The notes beneath the pieces were generated by a model. The model was not told the DNA's origin. It worked only from the letters and a program-made list of their open reading frames with translations, and made no database searches. Below, in pieces: positions 5,796-33,565 of a stretch of 33,565 bases of DNA (position 1 is the stretch's first letter; each line of letters starts with the position of its first letter). Source of the DNA: an uncultured Planctomycetales bacterium (lineage in GTDB: Bacteria > Planctomycetota > Planctomycetia > Isosphaerales > Isosphaeraceae). The position numbers were made by a program, and so were the translations under genes. The DNA lies in assembly GCA_903926465.1 (NCBI GenBank), contig CAIYJE010000103.1, positions 1 to 33,565 on the forward strand. Direction: 5' to 3'.

Positions 5796-6610
5796 AGAGC
5801 CCTTTCCTGTTCATCGACCCCAGACAGATTCACAATTTGACCAAGTTTAGCCTGGAAGCCAGTGGAAGAAAACCAACCAGCTTCCAGAAACATGACCATT
5901 GACGCTGTCATCCGCCGTGGTACTGCTAAACGCCAGGGTTTATGCCCTCTTTTGACATCCCCAGCAGAAATACGATCCGCGCTCTCTGGACGAAAACCTC
6001 GAATCTTATTGATCGAGAAATCTGGATGCAATGCCTACTATCGGCGATGGATGCCCATGCTCCAGTCCCCCGAGCCGTAGCAATTCTTGAGGCGGTGGAT
6101 TGGGGCAAAGAGAACCTTGGGATGCCCATCTAGCGAGTGTTTAAAAACGGCCATGTGCATCAGGGGCTCAAACTCGCCATCGCACGCGGAATTCGAACCG
6201 ATGCCATACGCAATGTTGGCTCCGGGCAAATTGAGAAATGCTGACCTTGGCCGCCAGTGCTTCTCTGGAAGCTGGTCTCTTACAGCCGTCGGATAGGATT
6301 TTCAGTCAGCGATCGCCTGGGCGGAAACACCCCGTGAAGCTTCCAGCAACGCCCAAAGCCTTGGGGCCTGGTCGAAAAAAGTTTTCTGGACGCAATTGCC
6401 AACGCCATAAAGCGTTGCGTGAAGTAGAGGCTCGCCGGGACCGACTTTCTTTGAGATTCTTGTTCGTTTTTAGGCGCCAGGCGCATCTTAAGAGAAACGG
6501 GTTCGCTTGCAATCGTCCGATTCGGTGTTCGTTGGTTCGTGCTGAACAACACCGCAAGGGGCGGCGGGCGGGTCCAATCTTCGACCTGAATAGCCAAGGT
6601 GTGGTTCAAG
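5796..6610. other. 0.8 kb gap between divergent genes
   Basis: No open frame here shows recognisable domains or normal codon texture, and the frames overlap on both strands without a winner. The gap must carry the promoters for the helicase (leftward) and the ParB-like gene (rightward), but I cannot pick a convincing -35/-10 pair. A small imperfect inverted repeat (CCAG-t-GCTTC ... GAAGC-TGG) lies around 6254-6275. The stretch could be a decayed gene; I cannot identify one. Confidence 0.45.
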
Positions 6611-7918
6611 ATGCCCAACGCCACTGAGACATGTTTGGATCTAGCCGAGCGACTACACCCGTATCAGTTTTTTCAGGACCTCGCCCCCGATGATTTTGAG
6701 CTTCTGAAGGAAGACATCCGGCTGCGCGGAGTTCAGACCGCCATCGAGATGACGGCCGAGGGAGAGATTCTGGATGGGCATCAGCGGCATCGGGCCTGCC
6801 AGGAACTGGGCATCATCGCCTTTCCTCGTCGGATCATCTTGGGGCTTGATGAGGATGGCAAGATCCATCATGCAATCAAAGCCAATTGCCTTCGACGGCA
6901 GTTGAGTCGCCGGCAGCGCCGAGATCTGATTGTGGGTGAATTGAAACGGAACCCCAGTCAGTCTAACAGGTTACTGGCCGAGCTGATTGGCGTGGATAAG
7001 AACACAATCCAGAGTGTTCGCAAGGAACTTGAGTCAGGTGGTGAAATTCACCACGTGGGTGCACGCGATGGTCGCGACGGCAAAATCTATCGCCCCTCAA
7101 GCATTTATGCCCCCACCCCGCAAGAAGCACGCAAGGCCCAAAGATTACTCACCCGCCTGGGAGACGACATTCCGGAAGGAAGGCAAATGAGCCTTGGCGG
7201 CGCCTCGGCACTTTTGCATAAAAAGAAACGAGCTCGCATCAATTCCATCATGCCGCCAATCGCTCCACGGCCTGGTGAGTTCAAGATCTGCCATCAGGAA
7301 TTTCAGAGTCGTGGTCCTGATATCCTCGACCATTCGGCCGACCTGGTCTTCACGCGTCCGTGCCCAGACCAAGTTCAAGATTCACTCTGGGAAGAGCTTG
7401 CTCGCTTCGCATCGTGCGTGCTCAAGCCGGGCGCGTTGCTGGTTGCCTCTGTTGAGCAAGCTAATCTGGCCCAGGCGCTTTATTCATTATCTCAGCATTT
7501 GAAGTATGTCACTTGCCTTGTGGCCTTTGAAAACCCGCAACCAAGACGATTGCCGGGTCAGGGCATTGTCTACCGCTGGAAGCCACTTTTGATCTTCAGC
7601 CTGGGTTTGTCTGAAGTTGGGCCGGCGTTGTTGGAAGCGTTTGAAGCTCAGAAGCAGATGGGCTTGGGGCGTGAACCAGACCCCGAACTCGAAGCCGCCA
7701 TGCAGTGTGTTCGTGCATTGGTGAAGCCCGGGAGTTTGGTGATTGATCCCTGCATGAACGCAGGAACAATTGCAGAAGCCGCGATCCGAAATGGGATGTC
7801 GTTCCAAGGATATGAAAGCAATGTCAATCTTTACCAGCAGGCAAAGCGCAGGCTGGAAGCCACAATCCAGACGTCAGAAACCATGACTCAACCGAAACCG
7901 GGTCCAGTTCCAGTGTGA
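6611..7918 (+). CDS. ParB-like nuclease/HTH protein fused to a degenerate beta-class DNA methyltransferase domain
   Basis: About 435 residues from the ATG at 6611; a GTG at 6599 would add four. Residues 10-95 form a ParB/sulfiredoxin-like domain, with EILDGHQRHRACQELG at about 52-67. A helix-turn-helix follows at about 120-141 (LLAELIGVDKNTIQSVRKEL) and then a GEIHHVG...GRDGKIY tail, as in phage and plasmid ParB-methylase proteins. The C-terminal 200 residues have the layout of a beta-class adenine/cytosine methyltransferase. The place expected for motif IV (DPPY) reads TRPCP at 248-252, and motif I (DPFxGSGT) reads DPCMNAGT at 379-386. The catalytic Asp and Tyr of DPPY are therefore missing, and the domain may bind SAM or DNA without methylating. 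The gene ends 418 bp before the GTPase gene and reads the same way. A DNA-binding, perhaps regulatory, role is inferred. Confidence 0.75.
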   Translation: MPNATETCLDLAERLHPYQFFQDLAPDDFELLKEDIRLRGVQTAIEMTAEGEILDGHQRHRACQELGIIAFPRRIILGLDEDGKIHHAIKANCLRRQLSRRQRRDLIVGELKRNPSQSNRLLAELIGVDKNTIQSVRKELESGGEIHHVGARDGRDGKIYRPSSIYAPTPQEARKAQRLLTRLGDDIPEGRQMSLGGASALLHKKKRARINSIMPPIAPRPGEFKICHQEFQSRGPDILDHSADLVFTRPCPDQVQDSLWEELARFASCVLKPGALLVASVEQANLAQALYSLSQHLKYVTCLVAFENPQPRRLPGQGIVYRWKPLLIFSLGLSEVGPALLEAFEAQKQMGLGREPDPELEAAMQCVRALVKPGSLVIDPCMNAGTIAEAAIRNGMSFQGYESNVNLYQQAKRRLEATIQTSETMTQPKPGPVPV

Positions 7919-8336: not shown

Positions 8337-9671
8337 ATGAGCCCACCCACCGCCAAGAACAAGAATCAGTCACGCCTTCTGAGTCAGGTAAGTTGCCCTC
8401 ATTGCTGGGCAATATTTCCGCCAGAGCAGGTTTTGTGGATTGCCGAGCATGCCTCAATGCTTGGTGATAGCAAGCTTGGCCCAGAGCAGGCCAGGCGCTT
8501 TTTGCCTAGCCGGTTCAATGTTGCAGGAGAGGCGATCGACGCCTCTGGCCAGGCCTGTCGCTCGCTGGCGTGTCCCTTCTGCCACCTGGCAATCCCACGT
8601 TCTGTGCTTGAAATTGAGCCGCTGTTTCTTTCGGTTTTGGGAGCGCCGGCGAGCGGGAAATCGTTTTACCTGTCTTCGCTAACGTGGACGCTCAGGAATT
8701 TATTGCCGCACACGTTCCGGGTTTCATTCACAGACGCTGATCCCGGCTATAATCGCGCACTCAATGCCAGTGAAGAATCGCTCTTTTTGAATGCCCAGGG
8801 AGATCAGTTGACTCCCCTGGGCGGCCTCATTCGCAAGACCGAGCTTCAGGGCGAACTCTACAGCACGGTATTGAGTGGCGGGCATGTGGTGAACTACGTG
8901 CGGCCCTCGCTGTTTATCGTCCGTCCTCAGGCGGGGCACCGCATGGCCCATGAAACGGGTTCGCTGACCCGGTCCATTGCGCTATATGACAATGCCGGTG
9001 AGCACTTTGAGCCCGGGCAAGATACGTCAACGCAGCCGGTAACCCGGCACCTGGCGCATTCGCGGGCACTCTTTTTCCTGTATGACCCCACGCAAGACCC
9101 TCGGTTTCGAGTGGCTGAAAAGGGGGGCCGACCGGCGGCTGGCGGCCGTTTTGGCCGTCAGGAAACGATTCTGAACGAGGCCGCCGCCCGAATTCGCAAG
9201 CATACGCAGCTTCGGCCAACTGATCAGATCGACCGCCCGTTGCTGGTCTTGCTTTCCAAGTGTGATACCTGGCTTCACCGGGTACGGGCTGCCGGGTTCG
9301 ATGCGCCGTACTTGCACTCGCCTGGAGATCCGGTGCCGGGCCTGGATCAGGATGCAATTCTTCGGGTTTCCGAATCGCTCAGAACCATGTTGCTGGATGT
9401 TGGTCCGGAAGTGGTGGCCGCTGCCGAAGAGTTTTCCAGCGATGTGATTTACTTCCCGGTGAGTGCGCTCGGGAGCAAGCTGGAGACCGACCCGAAAACC
9501 GGACTCACGTCGATCCGGCCAACCTCCATTGAGCCGCAGGGGGTAGCTGTTCCCATGCTGTATGCCTTGGCCCGCACGGTGCCTGGACTGGTGTCTCGGC
9601 TTGGCCGCCGGCCACGACCGGCCGACCAGCCGTCTGCCGGTCAGCGTTCGGGTGCTACTGCCCGCGCATGA
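8337..9671 (+). CDS. zinc-ribbon TRAFAC-like GTPase of a GTPase-GAP1 system
   Basis: A 444-residue soluble protein. The first 85 residues carry a split zinc ribbon, CPHC at 20-23 and CPFC at 79-82. The P-loop GAPASGKS is at 102-109. A strand ending in DNAG at about 218-221 fits G3 (DxxG). SKCD at about 307-310 fits the G4 base-specificity motif, and SAL at about 376-378 fits G5. The last 30 residues are a Pro/Arg/Gly-rich tail. This zinc ribbon plus P-loop layout, followed directly by a GAP1-N2 gene, matches the GTPase partner in systems that Aravind and colleagues predicted as biological conflict or signalling modules. The protein is expected to be a nucleotide-dependent switch in the cytosol. 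The ATG at 8337 lacks a strong Shine-Dalgarno sequence, which is common in planctomycetes. It is the first gene of a four-gene plus-strand run, 96 bp before the next start. Confidence 0.78.
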   Translation: MSPPTAKNKNQSRLLSQVSCPHCWAIFPPEQVLWIAEHASMLGDSKLGPEQARRFLPSRFNVAGEAIDASGQACRSLACPFCHLAIPRSVLEIEPLFLSVLGAPASGKSFYLSSLTWTLRNLLPHTFRVSFTDADPGYNRALNASEESLFLNAQGDQLTPLGGLIRKTELQGELYSTVLSGGHVVNYVRPSLFIVRPQAGHRMAHETGSLTRSIALYDNAGEHFEPGQDTSTQPVTRHLAHSRALFFLYDPTQDPRFRVAEKGGRPAAGGRFGRQETILNEAAARIRKHTQLRPTDQIDRPLLVLLSKCDTWLHRVRAAGFDAPYLHSPGDPVPGLDQDAILRVSESLRTMLLDVGPEVVAAAEEFSSDVIYFPVSALGSKLETDPKTGLTSIRPTSIEPQGVAVPMLYALARTVPGLVSRLGRRPRPADQPSAGQRSGATARA

Positions 9672-9767
9672 CCACGGCTTGCCGCTGGTTGTTAGCTGGT
9701 GCTTGATGTTGTCCATCGGATCTCTGGATTTGAACATTCTCTGGACTGTGCTGGGACGGAAGTTGCT

Positions 9768-12389
9768 ATGAGCCAAGAACTGCATTACACATCTGCGCCA
9801 CGTGGCTTGACGCCGGGCATGCGCGGGTTTTGTACGGTGGCACGCACGGCCGACCTTTCCAACCTGCTGGCCGAGCGGCTGGAAAGTCTGAGCGGATACC
9901 GGCAGGTCTTTCCGCCGCATCATCCGTCTGAAGCGCTGAATCCGCTGGTGTATTCTCACTTGCGGATGGGGAACACGGATCAAAGCATCCTTTCACGTAT
10001 TGGGTTTGCCGGGCTAGATTATTCGGATCGGGCCAACAAGTACGCGCATCACCTGGTTCTTTCTGCGTCTGAGCGTGCGAAGGGTGGACCGGCGTGGTTA
10101 ATTTCTCAGCCAGGGGTGATGGACAGTCAATGGGTGGGTGAGCCGCGCATCTTGTCCGCGGGTCGAGTGGTTGCGAAGGGAGATCAACCGTCCGGAATTT
10201 GCTGGGCCTGGCAGCAGGTGGCCGGTGATAGTGGCTGGGCAGGGGCGCTGGCGCAAGGGTTTCTTGATCATCCGGATCGGCCATCGTATCTGGTTTATGA
10301 GCCTGGGGTAAACCTGTTGCCGTTGTTTGTGGAAGCCTTGGCCCTGGTGCCGCCCGAGCGGCGCTGGCAGGTGACGTTCTCAACCTATTACACGGGGGTT
10401 CAGCCGGGTATCTCTTGCCTTTGGCGTGGGGTGCTGGCGAACACGCCCGAGGCCGAGCAGGCGCTGAGGATGCCTGGGGCCCTGGTGATTGACTTGACAC
10501 ACGCGTGTGGTGTGGCCCCTGCTTCGCCTTTAGCTCACCTGGCGCGGACGGGAGAGGTTCAGACAGTAGTTGAGGAAGCCCCGATACCGCTGGCGGTTCC
10601 TGAGCTGCCCATAAGTGTGGCTGTTTACCCAGTCTCAAGTCCATATAAGCTGGATGCTCCCCCACTACTCACAGGAGGCAAGGGCGGGCACAAATTAGAG
10701 TCTCGTTCAATCCGGCCGCCAAGGCTGCCAGGGCAGAGAGTCACGTGGGAGGGGGATAGATCACCAAGGCGTACGCGGACGATAGTTGCTTTAGCGTTCT
10801 TGCTGCTGATCGGAATTGGAGTGGCAGGAACGACTCGCTATTTATTGAATGAAGTGCAGTCCGTAGCAAGTAATAAGACGCTTGACGAAATGCTCAATTT
10901 AGAGCAGTTAGGGCAATCGAGGCGTTCAAACAACGAAGCCGTAGCTTTGAAAACGACGATAAAAACCTCTGGCAAGGATAGTCAGCAAAGCAAGCCGAAA
11001 AATAGTACTTCAGGAGGAGATGGTAAACCACCTGGCGAAACGCGCAAACAAGTAAATGGTTGTCCATCACGCGAACTACTTGTAAAACGGATCTCAGATG
11101 TCAAGATTTGGGCTACTGGAATTGTCGAAACTACGGCCATTGCAGCAGAGAGGGAAATGGCTGAAATTAATAGTAAAGTAAAGGCATTATACAATAGTTA
11201 TATGAAGATAAACGTAGTTGTTGTCAGTTCGTTGCAGTTTTTAAGTAATGATATTGAACCACCTACGAAACCACCCTCGGCCGATTTGCCGAAAGCGCAG
11301 TTACTGTTAAAAGATGGTAAGTTGAAAGCTAACGCTAAAATAACACTTTTGGGTTGGAAGGCCAACCATAAAGATGCCATTGAATTGATTGAACCTACAG
11401 TTGAGGGTAATACAATCTCTGTATCTTTCCGAGTTGGAGTTAGTATTATCCCCTTGGGTTGTCTTATTGTGATGAAAGATATTCTGGAGTGGATTGGAGA
11501 TGAAAAGCTCGGTGCACCAGAACTCCAACCCGAAGATATTAGAGTTGCATTCTCTATTTTAGCTGGTTGTGTGCTTCGGTTGAGTGATATAGAAAAAAAA
11601 GAAGAGGATTATTACGTAGTGCTGCGAAAGCCTTGGGATGTTAAGGCATTATGGAAATCGGCTAAACATTGTATACCAAAAAAGGAAATAAGCGTGTCAA
11701 CAAATAAGAACATGCGCATCTGCGTGAATGGCTTGGTGGTGAGGAGTCTGCATGTAGTTGTTAATGGGGATAAGGAAAGGGGTGGGCAGGAGGTTTTCTT
11801 TGGTAAGTCAGAAAAGGATATTTTTCTAAAACCTGAAGAGAAACAGGTCGATGATCACCTTAAGATTATAAAATTGGATAGTACTGATCTACGAAGTGGT
11901 TTTGATATCGCGATTAATATTCAATCTCTATCAAATCGTCCTCGTGGTCTAGCGCCCTTGACTGTATTGACTAGCTTTGAATCGGACTCTTCTAGGAAAA
12001 TTGATAAAGATTATCCAAACCTACTTGAGATTCTATTAGGTCAGAAAAGTAAAGAACCAAAAATAAAACTAGACCTTTTGATTGGGTCTTTGCGTGATTA
12101 TCGTAGTAACAAGGATACTATTATTCAAAGAATGATGGACGCAAGGGAATCCAAACCTCGAAACGGAATAGATGATAGGCCTGGGCTGGGACTAAGCAAT
12201 GAAGTTAAGAAAGAATTCGAGACAATGTTTGATAACGTAGCTCCAGTCGTAGATATGCTCAAATCAGATGTTGAAATTGTAAGTAATATGAGATTGGCAT
12301 TCAAGGTAGTTAAAATCGTACCGGATGGTGTTAGTGTTCGAACAATGGAATTTGTAGTGTTCAGTTATGATGAAAAAATTGGTGATTGA
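9768..12389 (+). CDS. GAP1-N2 domain protein (GTPase-associated protein 1), single-pass membrane
   Basis: 873 residues from the ATG at 9768, chosen because the family's conserved start (ELHYTSAPRGL ... GFCTVA) begins there; a GTG at 9699 would add 23 unrelated residues. Residues 1-130 match the GAP1-N2 domain as I remember it. Residues 130-280 continue the conserved part (QQVAGDSGWAGALA, LLPLFVEALALVPPERRWQVTFSTYYTG). A basic linker rich in Arg and Pro leads to a membrane segment at about 339-360 (TIVALAFLLLIGIGVAG). The remaining 510 residues are Lys/Asn/Ile-rich, match no family I know, and are encoded by AT-rich DNA. The basic residues before the segment suggest the N-terminal half is cytosolic, where it could contact the GTPase, with the C-terminal half outside the inner membrane. 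The GAP activity implied by the family name is a prediction. Confidence 0.78.
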   Translation: MSQELHYTSAPRGLTPGMRGFCTVARTADLSNLLAERLESLSGYRQVFPPHHPSEALNPLVYSHLRMGNTDQSILSRIGFAGLDYSDRANKYAHHLVLSASERAKGGPAWLISQPGVMDSQWVGEPRILSAGRVVAKGDQPSGICWAWQQVAGDSGWAGALAQGFLDHPDRPSYLVYEPGVNLLPLFVEALALVPPERRWQVTFSTYYTGVQPGISCLWRGVLANTPEAEQALRMPGALVIDLTHACGVAPASPLAHLARTGEVQTVVEEAPIPLAVPELPISVAVYPVSSPYKLDAPPLLTGGKGGHKLESRSIRPPRLPGQRVTWEGDRSPRRTRTIVALAFLLLIGIGVAGTTRYLLNEVQSVASNKTLDEMLNLEQLGQSRRSNNEAVALKTTIKTSGKDSQQSKPKNSTSGGDGKPPGETRKQVNGCPSRELLVKRISDVKIWATGIVETTAIAAEREMAEINSKVKALYNSYMKINVVVVSSLQFLSNDIEPPTKPPSADLPKAQLLLKDGKLKANAKITLLGWKANHKDAIELIEPTVEGNTISVSFRVGVSIIPLGCLIVMKDILEWIGDEKLGAPELQPEDIRVAFSILAGCVLRLSDIEKKEEDYYVVLRKPWDVKALWKSAKHCIPKKEISVSTNKNMRICVNGLVVRSLHVVVNGDKERGGQEVFFGKSEKDIFLKPEEKQVDDHLKIIKLDSTDLRSGFDIAINIQSLSNRPRGLAPLTVLTSFESDSSRKIDKDYPNLLEILLGQKSKEPKIKLDLLIGSLRDYRSNKDTIIQRMMDARESKPRNGIDDRPGLGLSNEVKKEFETMFDNVAPVVDMLKSDVEIVSNMRLAFKVVKIVPDGVSVRTMEFVVFSYDEKIGD
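10860..12389. other. AT-rich segment within the GAP1 gene
   Basis: Base composition changes sharply just after the membrane-segment codons. As an example, the 60 bases at 10321-10380 contain 40 G/C, while the 60 bases at 11161-11220 contain 15. Codon choice follows (AAA, ATA, GTA, AGA and TTA become common), and the composition rises again in the next gene after 12423. The reading frame is open throughout, so the segment is expressed as the C-terminal half of the protein. Confidence 0.85.
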
Positions 12390-12422
12390 TATTACGTAGG
12401 AGGAACAGTCCAACCAGTCGTC

Positions 12423-15368
12423 ATGTCCTGGTTTTCAAGTATCAGACAACTCAAAGAGTCCAATCCAATGTCTGACATTTCTTTGCTTGTTTCCGAAATT
12501 CGTGCTTTTCTGCAACGTGACGACCAGACGTTGAATGATCGCTTGACGGACCTGGCCAGGCAGTACGCCGACGAATGCGCCACTGTGAATTCACGGCTGG
12601 CAATGTGCAGTCGGTTACTTTCTCAGGGGTTGCGTAGTGAGGCCATTCAGCAGTCTGAGGCCGATCCCAATCTGCTTGACCAGGTCACATCGCTTGATTT
12701 TCCTGATCGGTCTGAGTGGGAAGCGATTACGGAGATGTACGGGCTATCCCGCCCACCAGGGCTTTTGATGGCGATTGCCTCGGAGCTTAATCAAGCGTAT
12801 GCGGAAGAGAATCCGTTGCGTGACCTGCTGAAGCAGCACCGTCGCCTGGCTCTGATGCGGGCACCGCTCGCCAAGCGAACGGCTATACTGGCACAAATTG
12901 CCGCGCAAGACATAACCAATCCCGTTTGGAATATTGATCTTGCATCTTATCAAAAGGTACGTTTAGCAGAGATCAAGGAAGAGGCCACTGTTGCCGTGAA
13001 AGCTGGCGACCTGCTGGCTGTCAAGCAATTGCAGAATGAAGTCATTTATGGATATTGGATTGATCAGCCATCGCCTGCGCTGATCAAGGGACTGGAGCAA
13101 GCCAATTCGGTCCTCACGCGGAACGAGGCGCGGGCTATGTTACCAGAATTAGAAGCCGGTTTGCAAAATGCGGTAGTTCTCAGCCATATTGAAGAGGCCA
13201 AGCGGCTTGGCACACAGTGGCGCGAAACCATAAGTTTAGCCGCTCTTGCGGCCAATGATCCTATCTCCCAGCGCATGTTGCCTGCTCTGGAGTGGATAGC
13301 ATTGCAAAATAAGCGTGAGGAACAGAGTAAAGAGTTTGAAAGCGAGGTTGCGGTTCTTGATGAGGCCTTGACGGACGATGCGCCACTTGAATATCTCTTA
13401 GAACTTGTGTCAAAGCTTTCTAAATATGAACGCGAGGTACCATCTGCAATTGTAGTGAGGTATGAGGCCCGTTTGGAACGGCAAGCTACGCTTGATCGTT
13501 TGGTTCGGTATGGGACATGGTCTACCTGGGCGGCCCTGGTTTTGCTGATTGCTGGCTGGACAGGCTATTCGATCTGGCATGGCCGGCGCACTACGGCTGC
13601 GGACCGACAATCCAAGATCATTGATCAGGCTTTAGTGAACAATGATCTTGATTCAGCACGGACTCTAATTGAGAACCTTAAAAAAACCGATCCAGGTTTG
13701 CTCACGTATTCTGTTCTTGACAGATCGTGGACTCGGTTTGATGAGGCACGGGCAAAGGATGACAAGCGGATCACGGATCTCAAAGCCTTGATTGCCGGCA
13801 TAAGTCAGGAACTCACACTCCCCTGGGTCGTGGTTGAGCTAGCTAAGGCTCGTAGCCTGGTACGTACGGCTGAAGAAAGAGCTGAGCTCGCGGCACTGGA
13901 GCAAAAACGTGAACAACTGCTCGTTAAGGCGCAAACCGATATTGACCTAGCTATTTTACCCCAGCTTGAGGCATTGGCCAGGGGCCTGAATGTGGCTGAA
14001 GACCATCTCAAAGGGGAAAACGCTGCGAGTGCCAGCAGCGAGGTGGCTGCACTTGCCGAGCAGTTCCGGGTCCTTCGTACTCGTCTTTCAACGGCAGGTC
14101 CGCTTTCCAAGACTAAAGGGAACGATATTCTCAGGCGGCTCACAGTGGCACAGCAAGCCACTAATAAGGCTGTAGAGCGTCAACTTGCACAGGCCGAGTT
14201 AAGCAAATCGGTGGCTGAACTTCCCCGGCAGGTTGAAGGTTACGTTTCGGCCCTCAATCGGTATCGGTTGACATTACCTCCTGGTGCAATCATGAGCGAG
14301 GCTGACCATAGCTTAGCCGAACGTCCGGTGTGGTCTTCGGCGTTGACAGAGGTTCGTGTGATGGCAGACTGGTTGACGGCAGCGCGTATGAAGCTGAGTC
14401 CAGCCGAAGCACAAAAGCGAACAGCGGAATTGAAGGAGTATGAAAAGCAATTGGTATCCGCTCCTGATCATAAAGCGTTAACTAGATATCAAGAATATTT
14501 GGCAACAGTTGCTCGGCGTTTAGGTCCAGGCGGAATACCACAAATAGAACGGTTGGCGGCAGACCCGCTGATCAGCCGAGCTCGCTTAATTCATATTGAG
14601 AATACGCCGAACAAAGAGCGTTATTATACGATTGATCCAATCGATAGTAGAACCACTAAATTTCACTACTTTACGGACTACAACACCGATAAAACGCAGA
14701 TCAAAAGCGCAACACTTGGTGGCATGGACAAGCATGATCTCGCTCCGCAGGTTGTCATTGGCAAGGCGCTCCGTTCTGCGTTGCCAGTTCTCAAAGACGG
14801 TTCAGGTTCTTGGGAAGGCACTATCCTTGAGCTTCTGGACCAGGTCAGAAGTCAACCGGATCTAGACCCGATTTTGAGGATTGACCTTCTCGATGGTTTG
14901 ATGCAGATTGGTTCGAACGGAAGTGCAGTCCTCAGTGAGCTTTTTATGGCACATCGTGATTATAGAAAAAGTATCAAGATCCGCCGCGGGCTGCGCTGGA
15001 TGAATCCCGATGATTTGTCCGCCTCCGAAGATCGCCCGAAAGCTGAAGAGCTTGGGATCCATTTTCCTGCGTTTGCTCCGCTGGTTGAACCGGCACTTGA
15101 GAAGGTTGAACCCCTTGAGTTGCCAGGGCTCATGATTCCAAGGGTAATTGGTTGGTTACAGCATGGCGAGGGTGGAATACTTTGTCAAACCGTCAATACG
15201 ATTTCAGAGCCAGGCGGCCTTTATGTGGTGGCACCGGCTGAGGATGCTGGCAGTCAGTGGGTTCGTGTTGGCGAGTGGGTTGATGGTGCGTCCAAGCTCG
15301 ATTTACGTAATCCCGCCGCACTCCAGGAGGGTAGGCTTGTGTTTTTCCGACCTGACGGCCTGAAGTGA
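12423..15368 (+). CDS. large single-pass membrane protein of the GTPase-GAP1 cluster, family not recognised
   Basis: 981 residues from the ATG at 12423; the ATG at 12468 (MSDISLLV) would give 966. A perfect AGGAGG at 12398-12403 lies 19 bp upstream of 12423, too far for normal spacing, so the start is uncertain. Residues 1-360 look helical and charged. One hydrophobic segment lies at about 366-386 (TWAALVLLIAGWTGYSIW), with Arg on both sides, so its orientation cannot be called. Residues 390-680 are rich in Ala, Leu, Glu and Lys, with heptad-like runs suggesting coiled coil. The last 300 residues look more globular, with mixed strands. I recognise no domain or catalytic motif. Its position 33 bp after the GAP1 gene and 57 bp before the GYF gene argues for a structural or sensory part of the same system. 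Confidence 0.65.
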   Translation: MSWFSSIRQLKESNPMSDISLLVSEIRAFLQRDDQTLNDRLTDLARQYADECATVNSRLAMCSRLLSQGLRSEAIQQSEADPNLLDQVTSLDFPDRSEWEAITEMYGLSRPPGLLMAIASELNQAYAEENPLRDLLKQHRRLALMRAPLAKRTAILAQIAAQDITNPVWNIDLASYQKVRLAEIKEEATVAVKAGDLLAVKQLQNEVIYGYWIDQPSPALIKGLEQANSVLTRNEARAMLPELEAGLQNAVVLSHIEEAKRLGTQWRETISLAALAANDPISQRMLPALEWIALQNKREEQSKEFESEVAVLDEALTDDAPLEYLLELVSKLSKYEREVPSAIVVRYEARLERQATLDRLVRYGTWSTWAALVLLIAGWTGYSIWHGRRTTAADRQSKIIDQALVNNDLDSARTLIENLKKTDPGLLTYSVLDRSWTRFDEARAKDDKRITDLKALIAGISQELTLPWVVVELAKARSLVRTAEERAELAALEQKREQLLVKAQTDIDLAILPQLEALARGLNVAEDHLKGENAASASSEVAALAEQFRVLRTRLSTAGPLSKTKGNDILRRLTVAQQATNKAVERQLAQAELSKSVAELPRQVEGYVSALNRYRLTLPPGAIMSEADHSLAERPVWSSALTEVRVMADWLTAARMKLSPAEAQKRTAELKEYEKQLVSAPDHKALTRYQEYLATVARRLGPGGIPQIERLAADPLISRARLIHIENTPNKERYYTIDPIDSRTTKFHYFTDYNTDKTQIKSATLGGMDKHDLAPQVVIGKALRSALPVLKDGSGSWEGTILELLDQVRSQPDLDPILRIDLLDGLMQIGSNGSAVLSELFMAHRDYRKSIKIRRGLRWMNPDDLSASEDRPKAEELGIHFPAFAPLVEPALEKVEPLELPGLMIPRVIGWLQHGEGGILCQTVNTISEPGGLYVVAPAEDAGSQWVRVGEWVDGASKLDLRNPAALQEGRLVFFRPDGLK

Positions 15369-15425
15369 TAATTGTAAGTTGGATTGTTTATTCATAACCT
15401 ACTCAAGTCAATTTAGGATTAAACG

Positions 15426-16451
15426 ATGTCTGATCCGGTTTGGTATGTGCGTGATAAGGGGCGGGTGATGGGACCCTTTACACCGGCCCAGTTTGAGAAG
15501 TTAAAGTCAGCGGGGCGGGTAACACGTCTGAGTGAGATTTCGCCAGACCGTAATAACTGGCTGAGTGCTGCATCGCTATTCGAAGGCACGGCCAACAGTA
15601 TGGCTCAAGGAGGTGGATCGCAGTCGCCATCATCTGGCGTTTCATCGAACCATTTTACAGGAGTTTCAGGGGCACCGCAATTTGGTTGGTATTATGCTCA
15701 AGGTAAAGATCGAATTGGACCGATTGCCATTGATCAAATCAATCAGTTTATCGGGTCCGGAGCGATTGTTGCCACGACTCAGGTGTGGAACAATACAATG
15801 GCAGACTGGGTACCTGCTGCGCAGGCAGAGGGTCTGCGAGATAGGTTTCCTGAGCAGCATATTGTAATTACGGATTCGGATTCCGACCGTTCAGCGCAGG
15901 CGAAAATCACAAAGCCTAGACGTCTATGGCTTTACTTGAGCCTGGCAACTCTTCTACTTGTGCTTGTTGCTGCCGCAGGCGCTGGTGTGTATTACTGCAA
16001 GGCGAATGAACTTTTTTACTTTTCTGATGGTGCCACGATTGCCGAAGGGCACTATCATAACTCGGAAACCAATCCCTTATCGGTCCTGAACATGGGTACT
16101 GCAAGGCTCTCCCCCAGCCACCGTGGGGTTGTTTCTTATTTACGGAGTAATGAGAGTGAGCCAAACCGTGTAACAATCGTAGAGATGTTTTCGCCAATCT
16201 ATAAAATGGCAGTTCTGGATTCTTCTACGGGTCTTCCTTCTCTGAATCTGATTGATGCCAAGCAGGTACTCAGCCCTTCGTGGGCTGTGCTTGCGCGTAT
16301 TCGTTGTCCCCAATATAATGACAGAATTGACCTGAGATTCAAATTATTTATCCTTGATGAATATCATAAAGTAAGAACCTCACTCGAACGTTCAGACTTT
16401 ACAGTTTATAAGAATGCGTGCATTTACTATGGGCTCGATGACGCACGGTAA
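15426..16451 (+). CDS. double GYF_2 domain single-pass membrane protein
   Basis: 341 residues. GYF_2 domain 1 lies at about 4-52 (VWYVRDKGRVMGPF ... ISPDRNNW) and domain 2 at about 86-137 (GWYYAQGKDRIGPI ... VWNNTMADWVPA), joined by a Ser/Gly linker. GYF domains bind proline-rich peptides, and GYF_2 is common in planctomycete membrane proteins. A basic PRRLW precedes a membrane segment at about 165-188 (LSLATLLLVLVAAAGAGVYY), so the GYF pair should be cytosolic. The last 150 residues would be exported and match nothing I know. It is the last gene of the cluster. The GTPase tail and the GAP1 linker are both proline-rich and are candidate GYF ligands, though that pairing is inference. Confidence 0.8.
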   Translation: MSDPVWYVRDKGRVMGPFTPAQFEKLKSAGRVTRLSEISPDRNNWLSAASLFEGTANSMAQGGGSQSPSSGVSSNHFTGVSGAPQFGWYYAQGKDRIGPIAIDQINQFIGSGAIVATTQVWNNTMADWVPAAQAEGLRDRFPEQHIVITDSDSDRSAQAKITKPRRLWLYLSLATLLLVLVAAAGAGVYYCKANELFYFSDGATIAEGHYHNSETNPLSVLNMGTARLSPSHRGVVSYLRSNESEPNRVTIVEMFSPIYKMAVLDSSTGLPSLNLIDAKQVLSPSWAVLARIRCPQYNDRIDLRFKLFILDEYHKVRTSLERSDFTVYKNACIYYGLDDAR

Positions 16452-17321: not shown

Positions 17322-17390
17322 GCCCTCATCCGGCCTTCGGCCACCATCTCCCGCATGCGGGAGAAGGTGGCCGGAACGGCCGGATGAGGC
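17322..17390. repeat. REP-like cruciform palindrome
   Basis: A two-level inverted repeat. Outer arms are 17322-17335 and 17378-17390 (GGCCGGATGAGGC and its complement, with one extra C). Inner arms GGCCACCATCTCCCGC and its complement have one mismatch and meet at GCATGC. The sequence resembles the CCCTCATCCGGCC / GGGAGAAGGTGGCC palindromes scattered between genes in many GC-rich bacteria. It lies about 130 bp after the frameshifted gene and may protect or end transcripts. Confidence 0.75.
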
Positions 17391-17544: not shown

Positions 17545-18049
17545 CGCTTCGCGATGGTCCGGTGTATGCGGTCCCGGATGACCGGAGTCATCCATGCCTC
17601 CAGGGGATGAAGCCAAAAGCCAGAAGATGTAGTCGCTTCGCGATGGTCTGGTGTATGCGGTCCCGGATGACCGGAGTCATCCATGCCACCAGGGGATGAG
17701 GCCAAAAGCCAGAAGATGTAGACGCTTCGCGGTGGTCTGGTGTATGCGGTCACGGATGACCGGAGTCATCCATGCCACCAGGGGATGAAGCCAAAAGCCG
17801 GAAGAGGTAGACGCTTCGCGATGGTCTGGTGTATGCGGTCACGGATGGCCGGAGTCATCCATGCCACCTGGCGAAGAGAAGGCAGATACAAGAAGAGCGC
17901 TTTGCGGTGGTCTGGTGTAGGCGGTCAGGGATGACCGGAGTCATCCATGCCACCCGGCGAAGAGAAGGCAGATACAAGAAGAGCGCTTCGCGGAGGTCCG
18001 GTGTATGCGGTCACGGATGACCGGAGTCATCCATGCAGCCAGGCGAAGC
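17545..18049 (+). repeat. tandem repeat array A, six copies of 86-89 bp
   Basis: Six copies begin at about 17545, 17634, 17723, 17812, 17898 and 17984, giving periods of 89, 89, 89, 86 and 86 bp. Each opens with a conserved core of about 55 bp (CGCTTCGCG ... GGATGACCGGAGTCATCC ... ATGCCACC). The core contains the inverted repeat GGATGAC-CGGA-GTCATCC; copy 4 has GGATGGC instead. The rest of the unit comes in two forms: copies 1-3 carry GGGGATGAAGCCAAAAGCC, copies 4-5 carry GGCGAAGAGAAGGCAGATAC. The array fills the gap between convergent genes and ends 34 bp before the CBM9 gene's stop codon. The short open frames across it are by-products of the repeat. Confidence 0.9.
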
Positions 18050-27970: not shown

Positions 27971-28025
27971 GCCCAAGACCATCAAAACCTGTTCCTGGTT
28001 TTTCAAGCCAAGCGAAGTACCAAGC

Positions 28026-28327
28026 CGCTTCGCGGTGGTCGGGTGTGTCCGGTCACGGATGACCTGAGTCATCCATGCCACAAGTCGATGAAGCCCGCAG
28101 ACTCAAGCCGCTTTGCGGTGGTCGGGTGTTCGGTCACGGATGACCTGAGTCATCCATGCCACAAGTCGATGAAGCCCGCAGACTGAAGCCGCTTTGCGGT
28201 GGTCGGGTGTTCGGTCACGGATGACCTGAGTCATCCATGCCACAAGTCGATGAAGCCCGCAGACTGAAGCCGCTTCGCGGTGGTCGGGTGTGTCCGGTCA
28301 CGGATGACCTGAGTCATCCATGCCACA
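28026..28327 (+). repeat. tandem repeat array B, four copies of 81-83 bp
   Basis: Copies begin at about 28026, 28109, 28190 and 28271 (periods 83, 81, 81). Each has CGCTTCGCGGTGGTC or CGCTTTGCGGTGGTC, then GGTCACGGATGACCTGAGTCATCC and ATGCCAC, then a tail CAAGTCGATGAAGCCCGCAGACT in the first three copies. The core is clearly related to array A and has the inverted repeat GGATGAC-CTGA-GTCATCC. The tail differs from both tail types of array A. The array lies between convergent genes and ends 41 bp before the oxidoreductase stop codon. Confidence 0.9.
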
Positions 28328-33023: not shown

Positions 33024-33565
33024 TCAGGCACGCCAGTCACGGCCTGGAAGCTTGGCTGGCCATTCATCGTCTGTGAGCCAGACGATTGAGGTTGAGGTTT
33101 TATCAAGACCGGTTGCGTTTGATGGTTGGGCAGTCCGGATCTCGGCCGATCCGTTGCCTTCAACATTCACGCGAATCGGCTGGAAGTCACCGTCACTGGT
33201 GGAGAGGCTCTGGTCGTGGATCGGTCGGAAGCCAGCCGGCACCTTTCCGAGCAGGGCATTGAGGCGCTGCTTGCTTCTCAGGCCCGACAGAGAGAGTTCC
33301 ACCGTATGGCCAACGCGACGGAGGACGGCGTAATCCAGCTTTGCAGCATCGGGTAGCTTGAGCAGACCAGAGATCTCTCGGGCACCCGTTGCGCGAATTT
33401 CGGCAGAGACTCCCGCAGGGCCCACTGGTCCCATCGGTCCAGCCTTGCCGTCGAGGCCGTTCTTGCCAGGAGCGCCATCTTTGCCCGCCGGTCCAGCAAC
33501 TCCGGCCTTACCGTCGAGGCCGTTCTTGCCAGGAGCGCCATCTTTGCCCGCCGGTCCAGCAACTC
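33024..33565 (-). CDS. collagen-like Gly-X-Y repeat protein, 3' part only
   Basis: The gene enters from the right edge, so its start and N-terminal part are missing; about 180 residues are visible. The visible N-terminal stretch is collagen-like, with Gly at every third position (GLD GKA GVA GPA GKD GAP GKN) ending in GPM GPV GPA GVS. The DNA here has a 63-bp repeat (21 residues, seven triplets), with two nearly identical units in the window. The last 130 residues are a globular tail (EISGLLKLPDAAKLDYAVLRRVG, GDFQPIRVNVEG) that I do not recognise. Bacterial collagen-like proteins are usually surface-exposed trimers, and the tail may nucleate trimer assembly. Confidence is high for the repeat and low for function. 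Confidence 0.85.
   Translation of the reverse strand, partial: VAGPAGKDGAPGKNGLDGKAGVAGPAGKDGAPGKNGLDGKAGPMGPVGPAGVSAEIRATGAREISGLLKLPDAAKLDYAVLRRVGHTVELSLSGLRSKQRLNALLGKVPAGFRPIHDQSLSTSDGDFQPIRVNVEGNGSAEIRTAQPSNATGLDKTSTSIVWLTDDEWPAKLPGRDWRA

Follow-up and report, generated by a model that had tools for sequence, protein, structure and literature searches.

What kind of system is encoded where a zinc-ribbon GTPase gene is followed by a gene for GAP1 and by genes for two further membrane proteins, and do these genes form a unit? GAP1 stands for GTPase-associated protein 1 and is not a demonstrated GTPase-activating protein. The window, by which we mean the whole 33,565-nt stretch of DNA analysed, corresponds to contig C103 in full, from a planctomycete genome of 6.9 Mb. 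It is in our judgement rather probable that the operon encodes a GTPase switch complex spanning the inner membrane, in which three single-pass membrane proteins surround a cytoplasmic, GTP-driven component.

The four co-directional genes (Table 1) lie as a first-pass annotation had placed them, with gaps of 96, 33 and 57 bp. The family N-terminus of GAP1, MSQELxYTS, aligns to the ATG at 9768 and not to the opening of the ORF at 9699, which gives the 96 bp between GTPase and GAP1; the other two values are the ORF gaps on either side of P3, the product of the third gene. The 981-residue length given for P3, and with it the 33-bp gap, holds for the ORF, but translation probably starts 45 bp later. 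Most homologues begin at residue 16, so P3 probably has 966 aa and the gap before it probably measures 78 bp.

Table 1. The four genes of the unit, in window positions; the start of P3 is the probable one.
Feature	ORF	Coding region	Strand	Basis
Zinc-ribbon GTPase, DO-GTPase2 type, predicted cytoplasmic, 444 aa	8337-9671	8337-9671	+	Pfam, G motifs, CxxC pairs, conserved first-gene place
GAP1: GAP1-N2 + GAP1-M (predicted cytoplasmic), TM 338-356 (873-aa form), divergent predicted periplasmic part	9699-12389	9768-12389	+	Pfam, start alignment, charge bias, model
P3: putative single-pass helical scaffold; ~345 aa predicted cytoplasmic, TM 360-380, ~600 aa predicted periplasmic	12423-15368	12468-15368	+	Homologues, AF2, charge bias
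Double GYF_2 adaptor, TM 167-185, short unrecognised, predicted extracytoplasmic tail	15426-16451	15426-16451	+	Pfam GYF_2 x2

The pairing of a TRAFAC-type GTPase with a GAP1-N2 protein, also proposed in the first-pass annotation, is borne out by Pfam matches and conserved G motifs. GAP1 matches GAP1-N2 (3.3e-26) and GAP1-M (2e-12), and the product of gene 4 contains two GYF_2 stretches (2.6e-20), all above their cut-offs, but the DO-GTPase2 match of the GTPase is weak (2e-4; 21.5 bits, below the 27-bit cut-off). The same Pfam profile is matched by 20/23 GTPase homologues, at best with 9.7e-9. The motifs GAPASGKS (P-loop), DNAGE, SKCD and SALG are kept across the 23 homologues, and DNAGE, found in every one, puts a Glu in Walker B, a DO-GTPase trait within the TRAFAC clade. 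Two CxxC pairs, C20/C23 and C79/C82, are invariant in the same set and make up one zinc ribbon; in the passages of Kaur et al. cited here, DO-GTPases usually have two (PMC7159879). PDB sequence searches with the GTPase returned no useful relative. Two of the 23 scanned homologues match FHA, likely those of loci L138 and L142, whose GTPases have long N-terminal extensions in the alignment.

Both GAP1-N2 and GAP1-M were found in 25/25 GAP1 homologues. No further convincing Pfam domain was found in the GAP1 of the 25 loci, with a Pfam set that may hold no GAP1-C model; a TM helix and a divergent periplasmic part occupy the place of GAP1-C. Elsewhere in the genome, a second GAP1-N2 match (G000:C140:11812-12159; L003, L035) is weak, at 27.5 bits, and has neither P3 nor GYF nearby. 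The gene 4 product was the only GYF_2 protein found in a search of the whole genome. Its relatives keep the GYF part and differ in the remainder, which comprises one to several TM helices, a trypsin domain (L132) or a T2SSE ATPase (L140). The last of these is a fusion of GYF_2 to a secretion ATPase, encoded alongside truncated GAP1 and P3. At L131, a kinase-TPR protein takes the place of the GYF gene and the GTPase is not adjacent.

P3 has no convincing Pfam match, nor have 30 homologues. Its AF2 model (pLDDT 87.6) is mostly helical, with a low-confidence TM helix, and closes with two small beta domains, at 721-773 and 907-977. The best Foldseek match reached 2.4e-3, with nothing at E<=1e-3, and VIA-align returned a mixed set of helical repeats, of which several superpose with very large rmsd; we therefore claim no fold family for P3. 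A candidate GYF ligand in P3, a PPG-hydrophobic motif at residue 111, was set aside as not conserved. P3 homologues occur in 15/59 relatives, and a profile search found them in many families across the phylum.

The neighbourhood of these genes is conserved. The first-pass annotation had proposed a survey of all four genes for conserved order. GTPase-GAP1-P3 recurs in that order in 27 loci, one of them from a Lentisphaerota genome and the others spread over many families of Planctomycetota, and the GYF gene follows P3 in nearly all of them, a few with another gene in between. The flanks of these loci change while the gene order stays. A profile search of genome contigs with a narrow alignment yielded 15 loci. 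Where strong GAP1-N2 matches have room on their contig, P3 comes next in nearly every case; one locus with two GTPases, in genome G430, clearly departs from this, and some cases at contig edges are not judgeable. Weaker, mostly short GAP1-N2 genes form a different class in which P3 is rarely present. P3 thus appears to be a near-obligate, apparently new partner of the strong GAP1-N2 class. In two genomes (G016 and G439, the latter on contig C127) the GTPase gene is not beside GAP1, and each has a GTPase homologue elsewhere. Correlated pairwise distances among the three large proteins (Mantel r 0.72-0.84, p 1e-4), together with an order that recurs in 27 loci, make the unit more than chance.

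Topology signals divide GAP1 and P3 into an inner and an outer part. Lys and Arg lie mostly N-terminal to the TM helix in both proteins, and the place of the P3 helix and its charge bias are seen in 30 homologues; the conserved heads are therefore predicted to be cytoplasmic (N-in/C-out). The label 'single-pass', given to proteins 3 and 4 in the first-pass annotation, suits proteins 2, 3 and 4. Mean pairwise identity in GAP1 is 51% for N2, 48% for M and 14% after the TM helix; in P3 it is 32% for the cytoplasmic and 19-22% for the periplasmic part. At the sequence level this contrast fits a constant inner switch with a variable and possibly ligand-binding outer part. The GAP1 (370 aa) and P3 (377 aa) of locus L140 both end just past the TM helix, so the periplasmic parts would be dispensable in some loci.

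Longin/DENN is the fold class of eukaryotic Rab and Rag regulators, and the cytoplasmic head of GAP1 models as longin/DENN-like. With a model of residues 1-361 (pLDDT 84.9), Foldseek gave TagF as best match (E 4e-4, prob 0.99). The leading VIA-align rows were a Lokiarchaeal longin (Z 8.2), DENND10 (7.4), DENND1A-Rab35 (7.3), TagF (7.2) and DENND1B (7.1), followed by Lst4, FLCN-FNIP2 and GATOR1 subunits down to Z 6.0, and most of the leading rows are partners of GTPases. Scores of Z 7-8 on this head are moderate, common fold arrangements can reach them, and the longin/DENN alignments at Z 7.1-8.2 cover 121-237 residues with no sequence backing. Sequence searches with the head returned no longin/DENN similarity. 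A bacterial relative is plausible because longin domains were traced to prokaryotic MglB-like GAPs in the 2012 DENN paper (PMC3521125). Longin, DENN and TagF are all absent from the main text of Kaur et al. 2020 (PMC7159879). Between head and TM helix, a proline-rich stretch contains PPPL in 7/25 GAP1 homologues, versus 0.5 in shuffles; since 4/7 are near-identical paralogues, PPPL as a GYF ligand is a lead only. The window GAP1 has PPRLPG instead.

Many related loci encode more than the four genes. In 12/27 loci, the window locus not among them, we also find a MotA/TolQ/ExbB protein (PF01618, 5e-11 and 5.5e-12) and two proteins whose TM helix is N-terminal. These two B subunits are homologous to each other (hhalign 98.6%, E 1.4e-15), and in both the Asp with which the TM helix begins is invariant, within FQDII and LELLLDT respectively. 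When 392 phylum genomes were searched with the TMb protein of this motor module (E<=1e-20), 13/14 matches were on the P3 contig, near P3, and the remaining one was in a fragmented genome with GAP1-N2. On the Lentisphaerota contig the motor genes sit between GAP1 and P3. At L135 and L136, from f2 genomes, two GAP1 copies surround the GTPase gene in the order GAP1-GTPase-GAP1-P3-GYF-motor. Motor genes were not found in the window operon, most Isosphaeraceae loci are likewise without them, and the window's own genome gave no strong TMb match, only a 27-bit partial one. No useful relative of the motor subunits came from PDB sequence searches, and PADLOC gave weak ZorA matches through the MotA/ExbB domain only and no ZorB. 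ZorAB-type motors assemble 5:2 (PMC11890865), and a motor with two different B subunits would be unusual. The link between a motor and GTPase-GAP1-P3 operons appears to be new, and motor function is a prediction.

Gene set and order, co-inheritance, domains, motifs, topology signals and the contrast in conservation are observed. That the four products act as a physical complex, in keeping with the membrane complex suggested in the first-pass annotation, is our inference, as are GTP-dependent regulation by GAP1, the direction of signalling, the GYF ligand and the output. GAP1 would be held in the membrane by one TM helix; the zinc-ribbon GTPase is the most likely partner of its head (N2 + M), which would determine the nucleotide state of that GTPase. 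P3 would act as a helical scaffold, conserved in its cytoplasmic half and drifting in the periplasmic one, and the periplasmic halves of GAP1 and P3 would be available for sensing or binding some variable component of the envelope. The conserved GYF domains would dock, possibly with the proline-rich stretch beside the GAP1 TM helix as ligand, and the GYF protein would carry the variable output part. Because the operons of many relatives encode a MotA/ExbB channel and two B subunits, the GTP switch may there govern an ion motor or be powered by one. A bolder version, which we hold only tentatively and think unlikely as a whole, is a GTPase-gated envelope motor complex with a genuine longin-DENN regulator, the new P3 scaffold and, in the fuller operons, a dedicated two-B-subunit motor, making it a bacterial counterpart of the DENN/longin-GTPase pairing.

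What such a switch might serve can be read in more than one way. One possible reading, to which we give somewhat less than even weight, is biological conflict directed against phages or other invaders: the periplasmic parts would be the sensor of attack, the GTPase would determine a threshold, and the role of effector would fall to the variable GYF-linked part. The first-pass annotation had cited GTPase-GAP1 pairs as predicted conflict or signalling modules, and Kaur et al., in the passages cited here, propose all GAP1 systems as conflict systems (PMC7159879); for GAP1-N2 systems, too, a role in defence is predicted. The flanks, in which defence families show no clear excess, neither support conflict nor speak decisively against it. 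Horizontal spread would fit the patchy presence of the system and a P3 tree, many of its branches weak, in which the Isosphaeraceae (f1) and f2 rows form no clades. The variability of the GYF-linked part (trypsin, ATPase, TM-rich) and the loose likeness of the motor module to Zorya ZorA point the same way, as does the left neighbour in the window, P0006, a 1350-bit match to PDC-S37, a candidate defence protein. Against conflict, the operon has no nuclease or recognised toxin, and most flanks hold ordinary metabolism. PADLOC matches few of 111 flanking proteins, mostly generic kinases and proteases, and such matches are nearly as rare among 102 proteins from random regions; the idea of a defence island was dropped for want of clear enrichment over these regions.

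The surroundings of the operon in the window have features of their own. P0006 (429-5795, minus strand) has a DUF4011 - helicase - MTES_1575 nuclease architecture and is assigned to PDC-S37 by PADLOC, and an ORF at 6599-7918 (plus strand) weakly matches ParB-N, winged-helix and, in its C-terminal part, N6/N4 methylase profiles. A 36-bp near-perfect palindrome (CGGCCACCATCTCCCGCA / TGCGGGAGAAGGTGGCCG) lies at 17338-17373. Tandem arrays at 17545-18043 (89 bp x5.7) and 28021-28327 (81 bp x3.7) have units with a common core of about GGATGACC-GAGTCATCCATGCCAC, and a collagen-like Gly-repeat protein with a 63-bp tandem repeat (33024-33563, minus strand) runs off the contig. A link to type VI secretion, raised by the TagF fold match and by FHA on two GTPases, was set aside, as no T6SS genes were noticed among the flanking Pfam matches shown.

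Slightly less favoured, and in our view rather unlikely, is an envelope housekeeping or transport machine, powered by an ion motor of ExbBD/TolQR type, gated by the GTPase and acting on the wall, the outer membrane or uptake, with a motorless version in the window. A MotA/ExbB protein and two Asp-bearing B subunits dedicated to P3 loci argue for it, as do the periplasmic bulk of GAP1 and P3 and the metabolic flanks. The motor, however, is missing from most Isosphaeraceae loci, including ours, and the system is carried by ~6-10% of sampled phylum genomes and so is not core.

A third reading would leave the unit with nothing new: P3 would be the fast-evolving FNIII component of Kaur et al. with a helical N-terminal extension. 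This is improbable in our view. Variable parts may be fused N-terminal to FNIII repeats, according to passages of that study (PMC7159879), and the two small beta domains that end the P3 model would suit such a protein, but most of P3, including its conserved half, is predicted to be helical. FNIII was not matched in the four window proteins or in the 30 P3 homologues, in searches that covered the terminal beta domains within the whole protein. Finally, that four unrelated genes became neighbours by accident is practically refuted by the neighbourhood survey, with one order in 27 loci amid changing flanks and correlated distances.

Returning to the membrane-spanning switch, the analysis extends a class of GTPase systems that is itself predicted, giving it a near-constant partner and an ion-motor module. 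It also offers a concrete hypothesis for GAP1, namely that it regulates a GTPase through a longin/DENN-like head. If the fold holds, a bacterial DENN-like regulator with its own GTPase would bear on the origin of eukaryotic membrane-traffic regulators. The complex is small enough for reconstitution.

How new is the unit? The four genes belong to a kind already described: passages of Kaur et al. (2020, eLife; PMC7159879) report planctomycete GAP1-N2 systems with double-GYF proteins bearing TM-rich or trypsin parts. The likeness to those DO-GTPase/GAP1-N2 systems extends to a zinc-ribbon DO-GTPase2-type GTPase, GAP1-N2 with GAP1-M, a C-terminal TM on GAP1 and a double-GYF partner with a TM or trypsin part. 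The earlier remark that the genes had not been described as a unit thus fails for GAP1-N2 with double GYF; neither P3 nor the motor of related loci was found in the main-text passages of that study that were covered. No GAP1-C or FNIII protein was found here, within the limits on the Pfam set and the beta domains given above. What appears to be new is P3, the connection to a motor and the fold predicted for the head of GAP1.

TagF, a type VI secretion regulator, is the best Foldseek match of the GAP1 head and acts by way of Fha, a protein of the cytoplasm (PMC5995506). Two GTPase homologues match FHA here, but T6SS genes were not recognised. With Zorya ZorAB, MotAB and ExbBD/TolQR, related loci share a MotA/ExbB-family channel and TM subunits with an invariant Asp, but their two paralogous B subunits are dedicated to GTPase-GAP1-P3 operons, without a ZorB match, and the window has none. 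We know of no P3 or GYF partner for MglA-MglB. That pair, which involves another GTPase family, likewise joins a bacterial GTPase to a partner of the longin/roadblock class, a roadblock GAP (PMC3521125). The longin/DENN regulators DENND1A/B, DENND10, FLCN-FNIP, GATOR1 and Lst4 differ from GAP1, which is bacterial, has no sequence similarity to them and is partnered by a DO-GTPase rather than Rab or Rag, but they share the predicted fold of its head and, like it in our reading, work with a GTPase at a membrane.
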